Shown piece after piece: positions 18,018-20,819 of a stretch of DNA of 22,321 nucleotides. The position numbers and the translations under genes were made by a program. The stretch comes from a virus. Location of the stretch: positions 1 through 22,321 of IMG/VR virus record IMGVR_UViG_3300020009_000048. One strand, written 5' to 3'. Within the stretch, counting starts at the first letter, position 1, and each line of letters starts with the position of its first letter. A model generated the notes under the pieces. The model was not told the origin of the DNA. It was given only the letters and a program-made list of their open reading frames with translations, and ran no database searches.

Positions 18018-18083
18018 CCGTTTCCCTACGCACCTTAACAACCGAAGCAGTAAAGGTGAAAGCGACAGTTGGCGCCGCCGCTA

Positions 18084-18128
18084 TGGTGACCCACCTAGGA
18101 CTTGAACCTAGAACCCAATGATTAAGAG
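18084..18128 (-). other. attP: Phage attachment core: 3' half of tRNA-Lys(CTT)
   Basis: Read on the minus strand this is the 3' part of a tRNA: anticodon loop CTCTTAA (18128-18122), stem arm TCATT (18121-18117), five-base variable region, T stem-loop CTAGG/TTCAAGT/CCTAG (18111-18095), acceptor arm GTGGGTC (18094-18088), discriminator A and an encoded CCA (18087-18084). The 5' side is missing: CGAGC in place of a strand complementary to TCATT. Such 3'-half copies next to an integrase are the sequence shared between attP and a tRNA attB; integration rebuilds the host gene. The integrase 3' end is 33 bases away. Confidence 0.85.
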
Positions 18129-18170
18129 GCTCGCGGCAGACTTAAACGGATGACTGTAAATCATTGGGTT
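18112..18170. repeat. 12-bp inverted repeat spanning the attachment region
   Basis: AACCCAATGATT (18112-18123) is repeated in inverse at 18159-18170, 35 bases apart. The left copy is part of the tRNA anticodon arm; the right copy overlaps the integrase stop codon. Within the right copy, ATGA-CTGTAAA-TCAT (18150-18164) mimics a second anticodon arm with a 7-base loop, facing the first. Confidence 0.7.
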
Positions 18171-19241: not shown

Positions 19242-19658
19242 ATGAGTAACGAAGTGAAGAAAACAGCCATGCACCCAGCCTGGCAATGTGCGCACCGCAA
19301 GCTGACCAATGTGGACCGCTGGAATGATTACGAGGACGGGCTGCCCGGCGGCTATTACGATTCGCAGATTGCCCTGGCAATGATCGTGGGCGGCTTTGGC
19401 GCTGACGTGGTGGTGACGGAGCGCGACGAGGAGGGCAACCCGACGGCGTATAAATTCCCTGACGTGTGGGTGACGATCAACGAGGACGCCGGCCGGCGCA
19501 TGGGGCCGTCGCTGCGCTTCATGCGCGAAGTGCATGGCGAATTCGACGCGCCCACGCACTTCCCGTTATCCGAGCTGCAGTATGTGCGTTCGATGCAAGC
19601 CAATGATGCCGACTATGCGCGCCAGCTGGCGCAAAGTGCGCTGAACGGCCGGAGGTAG
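19242..19658 (+). CDS. Hypothetical early protein
   Basis: This 138-residue protein is the first rightward gene after the control region, with a strong AAGGAG 8 bases upstream. The N-terminus has W, C and H residues (HPAWQCAHRK); a central beta section follows (GADVVVTERDEEGNPTAYKF, DVWVTINEDAG). The C-terminus is helical. No domain is recognised. Being first in the early block of a phage, it may be a regulator or host-takeover protein, but nothing in the sequence shows this. Confidence 0.75.
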   Translation: MSNEVKKTAMHPAWQCAHRKLTNVDRWNDYEDGLPGGYYDSQIALAMIVGGFGADVVVTERDEEGNPTAYKFPDVWVTINEDAGRRMGPSLRFMREVHGEFDAPTHFPLSELQYVRSMQANDADYARQLAQSALNGRR

Positions 19659-19668
19659 GACGCGAGCA

Positions 19669-20013
19669 ATGGAAACCACCGAGATTCCCGAACAGCAGGC
19701 AACGATGATGCGATTAAATATGGTCATGTCACACACGCGGGGCCGCGGCGCGGCAATCTTGATCATGTTTGAACTTGCCTGGCAAGCGAATGAGGAATGG
19801 AAGTGCATTATGGAAGATGCCGCACTGTGCAAAGAGACGCGTATCAAGTCTCTGCGCACAGTGCGCAAGCATGTGCGCAGGCTAGTGGAGGCGGGAGAGA
19901 TTGAGACCTGGCCGGTGGAACCTGGCTGCAATGGCTATCGGATTCTTGCCGCCGAAATGCTAACACGGGGACCGCGGCCAGGTATCAACGATTGGCAAAG
20001 GGGGCCGCAATGA
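19669..20013 (+). CDS. Small winged-helix-like protein
   Basis: This 114-residue protein lies just before the replication initiator and overlaps its start as ATGA. The region about 59-96 (RIKSLRTVRKHVRRLVEAGE then IETWPVEPGCNGYRIL) has the helix-turn-helix and wing pattern of a small winged-helix DNA-binding protein. An upstream helix (RGAAILIMFELAW) completes the fold. It may assist the initiator or regulate early genes. The assignment is by pattern only. The upstream ribosome-binding site is weak, so translation may depend on coupling. Confidence 0.65.
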   Translation: METTEIPEQQATMMRLNMVMSHTRGRGAAILIMFELAWQANEEWKCIMEDAALCKETRIKSLRTVRKHVRRLVEAGEIETWPVEPGCNGYRILAAEMLTRGPRPGINDWQRGPQ

Positions 20014-20819
20014 GCATGACTCATGTAGCGTGGGTGCGCGACTTTTCGCGCACTCACGGCGGCGCCCGCCTGGTGCTGTGGGCATTGGCAAGCAGGGCTG
20101 ACGACAAGTCTAACGAGGCATTCCCTTCAGTTACCACACTTGCGAAGGATGCTGGATTGCACCGGACCAATGTTTTCCTTGCCGTGGCCGAGCTTGAAGA
20201 GCTGCAAGAAATTACATGCGAACGGCGTAAGGGACGATCTACGATATACACGTTGACAATGGGCGAACCAGTAGTGCAGCACTACCAGTCGCAGAGCGCT
20301 ACCAGTAGTGCAGCACTACCAGTAGCGCAGCACTACCCGTCGCAAAACACTACAAAACTAGTAGCGCTGCACTACCAAACTAGTAGCGCAGCACTACCCA
20401 TAAAGTCTTTTAAAGATTATAAAGGGGAAAAGATAGATATATCCCCTGATGTTGATTTGGTTTCGGACGAAACGGCGCAAACAACACAAACCGACGATGA
20501 CGCCTACAAGCGCCAATCGCCTACCTGGGTGGACCCCAATCCGATCACGGCCGGCGCTTTGTGGCATGCAATCCAAACCGAGTGCGGGCTATCGCTGACC
20601 AATGGCGTACTGCACCACGTTTTGCAAACGCAAGCGATTGCCCTTGACGGCGATGCGCTGCGCGTCCGGGTGACTTCGATTTTTGCATTTGAGGCGTTGA
20701 AGGGGGCGCGCTTGCAGGCAGCTATGGACCGTTACGCGCATTCGCTTGCGGGCCGGCCGTTGACGGTCCGTTTCGAGCTGCAGGAGCATGAGTCGGAACT
20801 TTTACGGGTAAACCGTTGA
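20010..20819 (+). CDS. Replication initiator: winged helix plus DnaA domain I-like C-terminus
   Basis: The product has 269 residues from the ATG at 20010, which overlaps the previous stop and has AAAGGGGG upstream; a start at 19992 would add six residues. Residues 1 to about 85 form an HTH_36-type winged helix (GARLVLWALASRAD, FPSVTTLAKDAGLHRTN, LQEITCERRKGRSTIYTL) as in many phage replisome organisers. Residues about 88-130 are a low-complexity segment coded by a DNA repeat array (see the iterons). Residues about 180-265 resemble the N-terminal domain of DnaA, with ALDGDALRVRVTSIFAFEAL and then GRPLTVRFEL, which in DnaA contacts the helicase. It probably binds its own gene at the iterons and loads helicase, as lambda O does with P. 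No separate helicase or loader gene was seen in the window. Confidence 0.85.
   Translation: MSMTHVAWVRDFSRTHGGARLVLWALASRADDKSNEAFPSVTTLAKDAGLHRTNVFLAVAELEELQEITCERRKGRSTIYTLTMGEPVVQHYQSQSATSSAALPVAQHYPSQNTTKLVALHYQTSSAALPIKSFKDYKGEKIDISPDVDLVSDETAQTTQTDDDAYKRQSPTWVDPNPITAGALWHAIQTECGLSLTNGVLHHVLQTQAIALDGDALRVRVTSIFAFEALKGARLQAAMDRYAHSLAGRPLTVRFELQEHESELLRVNR
20271..20397 (+). repeat. ori: Iteron array, probable replication origin, inside the initiator gene
   Basis: Seven 15-base units start at 20271, 20288, 20305, 20322, 20339, 20361 and 20383, spaced 17,17,17,17,22,22. Five are GTAGYGCWGCACTAC (20271, 20305, 20322, 20361, 20383), a near-perfect palindrome with one central base. Two at 20288 and 20339 (GTCGCAGAGCGCTAC, GTCGCAAAACACTAC) are degenerate. 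In lambda the origin is likewise a set of palindromic iterons inside the O gene, followed by AT-rich DNA, as here. The array is fully translated, giving the repeated SAALPV/QHY peptide. Confidence 0.85.
20399..20456 (+). other. AT-rich stretch after the iterons (candidate unwinding element)
   Basis: This is the most AT-rich part of the window, with TTTTAAAGATTATAAA and AGATAGATATAT blocks in an otherwise G+C-rich sequence. It begins 2 bases after the last iteron and is in frame within the initiator gene. The place and composition fit a DNA unwinding element. Confidence 0.65.

Follow-up and report, generated by a model that had tools for sequence, protein, structure and literature searches.

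Taken as a whole, the repeat array at positions 20271-20397 is best explained as an origin of the lambda-O type that serves the phage's own replication, a reading of high confidence in which the initiator would bind the repeats and replication would start there. An iteron origin inside the initiator gene is a known kind. The new points are a two-block spacing common to unrelated iterons, stop avoidance written into the units and a C-terminus that resembles DnaA domain I in its predicted fold. Among phages known only from sequence, most have, as far as is known, no mapped origin. The window is the whole stretch of DNA analysed, the 22,321-base viral contig IMGVR_UViG_3300020009_000048, in which terminase and portal genes are present.

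Near the right end of the record lie an integrase gene, a small HTH_36 gene and an O-like initiator gene. The features of the last two are as follows.

19669-20013, + strand: small HTH_36 gene, 114 amino acids (HTH_36 at 6e-4, below the Pfam cut-off; phrog_270 at 5e-5)
20010-20819, + strand: O-like replication initiator gene P0001, 269 amino acids (phrog_391 'replication initiation O-like' at 7e-13; HTH_36 at 1e-10)
20010-20258, + strand: codons of the N-terminal winged helix, residues 1-83 (PF13730 at residues 18-65)
20538-20783, + strand: codons of the predicted DnaA-domain-I-like C-terminal domain, residues 177-258 (Foldseek 4tps_D, 4.1e-5)

By its phrog_391 and HTH_36 matches the N-terminal winged helix of the initiator belongs to O-like families, and the winged-helix matches in the model and PDB comparison cover residues 11-86. 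Residues 84-177 have a pLDDT below 50 in the model and form a linker that is predicted to be disordered. The next gene after the initiator had no Pfam or PHROGs match. The small HTH_36 gene contains an 18-nt inverted repeat at 19821-19865 and may be a leftover or a regulator. Beside the integrase gene, visual inspection of positions 18083-18131 on the - strand suggests a 3' tRNA half with a terminal CCA, an arrangement known from attP sites; ARAGORN found no complete tRNA there.

The array consists of seven 15-bp units with unit-to-unit spacings of 17, 17, 17, 17, 22 and 22 bp.

20271-20285, + strand: iteron 1, GTAGTGCAGCACTAC, codon phase 0
20288-20302, + strand: iteron 2, degenerate, in the frame where the consensus would give a TAG stop
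20305-20319, + strand: iteron 3, GTAGTGCAGCACTAC
20322-20336, + strand: iteron 4, GTAGCGCAGCACTAC
20339-20353, + strand: iteron 5, degenerate, in the same stop-forming frame as iteron 2; closes the 17-bp block
20361-20375, + strand: iteron 6, 22 bp after iteron 5
20383-20397, + strand: iteron 7, 22 bp after iteron 6; adjoins the AT-rich stretch

These start positions agree with the units and spacings given in the sequence-only reading, which had also called units 2 and 5 degenerate and placed the array between the two parts of the initiator. Both statements were borne out. Five of the seven units match GTAGYGCWGCACTAC exactly on the + strand, the other two being GTCGCAGAGCGCTAC (unit 2) and GTCGCAAAACACTAC (unit 5). 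The array starts just past the winged helix, which ends at residue 83, and the C-terminal fold begins near residue 177; the iterons thus lie within coding sequence, between the two domains. With at most one mismatch the iteron pattern had no occurrence outside the array in the whole 22,321-base record, and the backwards control pattern had 0 matches in the record. Allowing three mismatches on both strands gave 14 matches, 10 in the array and 4 elsewhere, the latter all at exactly three mismatches; units 2 and 5 were not among the 14. Shuffles had a mean of 1.98 matches at this limit and none of 100 reached 14. Exact 9-mer close self-repeat pairs numbered 52 in the initiator gene, against a mean of 1.8 and a maximum of 9 in 200 shuffles. 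No relatives of the window's iteron pair were found in the viral or genome contigs searched.

No 68-nt stretch of the 22-kb record is richer in A and T than the one directly after the array.

20398-20465: probable DNA-unwinding element, an AT-rich stretch with A or T at 46 of 68 positions

Only 12 of the 22,254 stretches of 68 nt in the record reach 46 A or T, and all of them start at 20390-20401, at the array end. The putative unwinding element thus lies beside the last iteron. Among 53 arrays compared, including those of the survey described below, 47 have a higher AT content in the 60 nt that follow the array than in the 60 nt that precede it. The GC-skew check that had been proposed was run and was uninformative on origin location: the skew stays above zero in all 1-kb steps across the window, and since it has no sign change there it says nothing about the origin and was rejected as origin evidence.

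Near-palindromes bound by a winged helix are typical operators, and a second HTH_36 gene lies directly upstream. The array could therefore be mainly an operator by which the initiator, or the small upstream HTH protein, blocks its own gene at the level of transcription or translation, with replication starting elsewhere. This is very unlikely given that the array lies about 260 bp inside the gene, distant from its start, that the record's most AT-rich stretch follows it, that arrays occupy the same place in the surveyed O-like genes and that this place is the proven origin in lambda, as described in PMC4488673 and PMC7466680.

The initiator and its iterons can be compared with those of one relative, L090, a contig of IMG/VR sample 3300020020 reached through integrase similarity. 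The window and L090 have in common the local order integrase, upstream gene, initiator and downstream gene, and the ATG start of the initiator (MSM...). The C-terminal domains are 79% identical in amino acids over 105 codons and the winged helices 43% over 82 codons; at third codon positions the identity is 66% in the C-terminal domain and 34% in the winged helix. Amino acid and third-position identities are 69% and 59% for the upstream gene, 86% and 71% for the downstream gene and 86% and 68% for the integrase. The L090 initiator has different iterons at the same place as the window's array, with spacings of 17, 17, 22, 22 and 22 bp.

19529-20445: stretch without blastn match to L090, read as exchanged between the two; covers the small HTH gene, the winged helix and the iterons

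The blastn matches stop at 19528 and resume at 20446, past the array and within the AT-rich stretch, and the two flanks are 83% and 81% identical. The small HTH_36 gene, directly upstream of the initiator, is within this segment; L090 has a different short gene in its place.

The simplest reading of this one pair is a recombinational exchange of winged helix and iterons. The joint exchange of the two suggests that they belong together and, as the C-terminal domain is kept, that DNA-binding domain and sites changed as one cassette; the array would illustrate how a DNA-binding domain and its origin can be exchanged in this way. One close relative was found, so the cassette exchange rests on a single pair. 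The joint change of the iterons with the initiator's own DNA-binding domain also argues against a partition, packaging or incompatibility site that uses the linker of the gene as room, as does the fact that no partition gene was recognised among the neighbours scanned with Pfam and PHROGs. Palindrome arrays also serve as centromeres, and one VIA structure match was to the centromere-binding AspA (rmsd 7.3); even so, a site of this type is highly improbable.

The searches for further relatives were as follows. No relatives of the whole initiator were found in viral contigs. A profile search with the C-terminal domain gave only L090's contig among the viral contigs, and 0 of 61 stretches were confirmed in the genome contigs; the profile of the winged-helix pair likewise gave L090's contig only. 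With tblastn in phage records the window's initiator gave 66 records, the best with 36% query cover and an E value of 2e-3, and L090's initiator gave 1 record. PF13730, searched for in 40 of 80 TerL-related records, was found in 4 of the 40 at E 0.01, 2 of them above the cut-off, so those records are mostly without this initiator, or are fragments.

The units of the array are read in different codon phases: units 1, 4 and 6 in phase 0, units 3 and 7 in phase 1, and units 2 and 5 in phase 2. Because 17 and 22 are not multiples of three, the array is a DNA-level repeat read in all three frames and not a protein repeat. The consensus, which begins GTAG, yields an in-frame TAG solely in phase 2, and exactly units 2 and 5 carry TCG at the TAG position. 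By arithmetic, the chance that the two weak units of seven are the two stop-frame units is 1 in 21. The sequence shows a link between degeneracy and frame: with the array in a coding region and steps that do not divide by three, some units come to lie in the TAG frame, where the consensus is forbidden, and these are the degenerate ones. Stop avoidance does not account for the other mismatches that units 2 and 5 have outside the TAG position.

In L090 the unit GTATCAGAGTGACAC contains TGA, which is in frame in phase 0 only. Its phase-0 units 1 and 5 have GGA and CAA at the TGA site and units 2 and 3, in other phases, retain TGA; unit 4 has lost TGA although stop avoidance does not require it. 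A perfect array would meet a stop in 4 of the 53 arrays examined. The unit GTGACAGAGAGTCAC in an O-like gene of a Vibrio phage (L092, 1745-1834) also contains TGA and none of its 4 units is in the frame where TGA would be read, another route to stop avoidance. Stop avoidance in iterons was not named in the titles and abstract openings returned by a full-text literature search. The array shows protein-binding DNA sites written over a reading frame, with the stop-forming units weakened.

The same frame shifts bear on a further reading, in which the linker repeats exist at the protein level or as low-complexity sequence and have no role as DNA. The repeats do sit in a linker predicted to be disordered; set against this, each 17- or 22-bp step changes the frame, which makes one DNA word read as different peptides, and the repeat lags in the survey described below have no excess of multiples of three (remainders 0, 1 and 2: 119, 159 and 164 in set 1; 66, 130 and 96 in set 2), the backwards control being 0. 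A protein-level repeat was rejected on the frame shifts between units, and this explanation as a whole can practically be discounted.

The spacings were surveyed in two sets of O-like genes close to their queries. Set 1 was drawn from the best 80 of at least 562 confirmed genes (77 complete, 45 after dereplication) and set 2 from the best 80 of at least 538 (78 complete, 33 after dereplication). In set 1 the linker had 442 exact repeats of at least 8 nt at lags of 10-70, the HTH part 9 and the C-terminal part 22; in set 2, too, repeats were few outside the linker. At this 8-nt criterion, lag 22 was found in the linker of 43 of the 45 set 1 genes (absent from 2) and lag 17 in 29 (absent from 16). 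All 33 set 2 genes had lag 22 in the linker and 1 of 33 had lag 17. The shuffle control had at most 2 genes in any of 100 shuffles. The 17-bp block is thus not general. Together the lags of the two sets make 22 bp the common step and the 17-bp block an addition in some subfamilies, this lineage included.

The order of the two spacings is constant in set 1. Each of the 34 arrays that combine the two spacings starts with the short block, against 6.0 expected if the order were random; at a stricter limit this was so in 25 of 25 (4.9 expected). Eight genes were added to this count (the window's, L090, L092, L093, L100, L101, L102 and L104); five of them (the window's, L090, L100, L102 and L104) have both spacings, which brought the count to 39 of 39 (6.7 expected). 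The expected counts take no account of relatedness among the genes, and as the set 1 genes are related the 34 arrays are not 34 independent cases. In set 2 the short spacing preceded the long in 7 of 13 arrays at up to four mismatches and in 2 of 2 at up to three; in the six exceptions the last step is 18 bp and leads to a site with the maximum number of mismatches allowed. The histogram of steps has two peaks, with 96 steps of 16-17 bp, 7 of 18-20 bp and 104 of 21-23 bp, and the short and long classes were defined after its inspection. Many words chosen by the array finder are palindromic at only 8 of 15 positions; its iteron words are therefore rough, and the spacings were relied on.

Genes from plasmid records were examined for repeats as well. 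Among 14 genes, picked non-randomly from 22 records, 10 exceeded all 200 shuffles in repeats and L095, L096, L098 and L103 did not; together with the window's gene, L090, L092, L093 and L086 the count was 15 of 19, L087 being left out. L086 (1709-1942), an HTH_36 gene of a TerL-related phage, has three 78-bp (26-codon) linker repeats with AAAGGTGACAT-like sites.

The change from 17 to 22 bp, which was unfamiliar in the sequence-only reading, recurs in L090 and in one surveyed O-like subfamily, the 34 set 1 arrays, and its uniqueness was rejected. At 10.5 bp per turn a 17-bp step rotates neighbouring sites by about 223 degrees and a 22-bp step by about 34 degrees, and this switch in helical phase may, as had been suggested, mark two binding registers. 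A rule can be put forward tentatively, with somewhat less than even confidence: in origins of one broad kind of O-like phage initiators, a block of about 17-bp spacing would come first and one of about 22 bp would lie next to the DNA to be unwound, independently of iteron sequence; each block would have a job of its own, and in the present lineage a DnaA-domain-I-like domain would replace a separate P protein in helicase recruitment. Under this rule the 17-bp block may be a helically winding loading block and the 22-bp block a co-facial opening block. No such 17/22 rule was named in the titles and abstract openings given by full-text literature searches. If true, a spacing rule across unrelated iteron sequences would make such origins findable by sequence alone and would pose a testable question, what 17-bp and 22-bp steps do differently.

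The part of this rule that assigns two roles competes with a less probable though substantial alternative, in which the array is a true O-type origin and the spacing blocks are functionless remnants of array growth by in-frame duplication. Units 1-3 resemble units 4-6, a distance of 51 bp separates unit 1 from unit 4 and unit 2 from unit 5, and the combined lengths keep the frame (51 bp for three 17-bp steps, 39 bp for 17 + 22). A duplication accounts less well for the short-then-long order in 34 of 34 set 1 arrays with both spacings, and in the window and L090 besides, when the winged helices of the latter two are only 28-38% identical to those of 12 sampled set 1 genes.

The C-terminal domain of the initiator resembles DnaA domain I by predicted fold. 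Its fold order in the model is helix-helix-strand-strand-helix-helix-strand, and DnaA domain I is the top match in both Foldseek and VIA, with models of modest confidence (mean pLDDT 51 for the full initiator and 65.5 for the C-terminal domain alone). With the full model VIA gave 4tps_B (Z 12.1 over 81 residues) and 2wp0_D (Z 9.7 over 77); with the domain modelled alone Foldseek again placed 4tps first, weakly (3.3e-3). Sequence searches with the domain gave no Pfam match and no relevant PDB sequence match, one alphaREP chain appearing at E 0.7, and NCBIfam had nothing for the window's initiator and one below-cut-off match for L090's. No phage initiator with a DnaA domain I was named in the titles and abstract openings from full-text literature searches.

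In neither the window nor L090's contig, both possibly fragments, was a gene P (PF06992), a DnaB gene or a DnaC-like gene found (0 of 2 each), so the strict lambda O-P module, with gene P beside the initiator, was found in neither. In two phage records examined, the next gene after the O-like one codes for a DnaB-like helicase or a primase/helicase. The predicted fold, together with the lack of P, DnaC and DnaB in the fragment, indicates that helicase recruitment probably differs from that of lambda, and the initiator likely calls the host helicase directly. The domain I of E. coli DnaA helps to recruit DnaB via Glu21 and Phe46, and that of B. subtilis DnaA has no known helicase-binding role, as described in PMC5448010. 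The lambda-O-style layout first proposed is well supported, with a winged helix, linker iterons, an AT-rich stretch and a C-terminal protein-interaction domain; the part that probably departs from lambda is helicase recruitment.

The preferred reading, an origin of the lambda-O type, suggests the following mechanism. Dimers of the N-terminal winged helix would bind the seven 15-bp near-palindromes. On the units 22 bp apart, near the AT-rich end, the bound dimers would lie nearly on one face of the helix and form a core complex which, by analogy with lambda, would strain and open the adjoining AT-rich stretch. The upstream units, 17 bp apart, would wind around the helix as an accessory loading or regulatory block. 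The C-terminal domain, with its predicted DnaA-domain-I fold, would recruit the host helicase without a phage P protein. The sequence itself shows that, in an array placed within coding DNA, the units in the TAG-creating frame are degenerate, and that in the one pair of related phages compared winged helix and iterons have changed together while the C-terminal domain has stayed.

Among known origins, that of lambda lies inside gene O and comprises four iterons and an AT-rich part of 49 bp, as described in PMC4488673. Lambda O and its origin resemble the window in the DNA-binding N-terminal half, the iterons in the initiator's own gene and the AT-rich stretch alongside, according to PMC4488673 and PMC6022878. 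The lambda iteron starts are 20, 24 and 23 bp apart, the shorter first as in the window. Lambda differs in that there are four units and the 17-bp block is absent, the C-terminus binds P and gene P is adjacent, whereas the window has seven units, a 17-bp block, a C-terminus predicted to be DnaA-domain-I-like and no P found. DnaA domain I itself (4tps, 2wp0) is like the C-terminal domain in predicted fold, but here it would be fused to a winged helix and not to AAA+ and DnaA's own DNA-binding domain.

Phage-inducible chromosomal islands, as described in PMC6092414, also have an initiator gene, a cognate iteron origin and an AT-rich stretch; there, however, the origin lies 3' of the initiator gene and two iteron sets flank the AT-rich stretch. 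The phrog_391 O-like initiators of Pseudomonas- and Massilia-type elements (set 1; for example L104, L127 and L192) have the 17-bp block, then the 22-bp block and an AT-rich stretch after it. They differ in iteron sequence, and their wHTH domains are 29-37% identical to the window's (12 of 45 compared); the C-terminus of L104 differs by eye from the window's.

The O proteins of Stx phages with six-iteron origins, as described in PMC7466680, are alike in having the extra iterons on the side far from the AT-rich stretch, but have lambda-type iterons and an O-P module, and the two extra iterons add 13 residues (39 bp). According to the same source, the four near iterons are bound efficiently and the two far ones weakly, yet an origin plasmid reportedly needs the far ones in order to transform. 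By analogy with these far iterons, the 17-bp block may be an accessory block.
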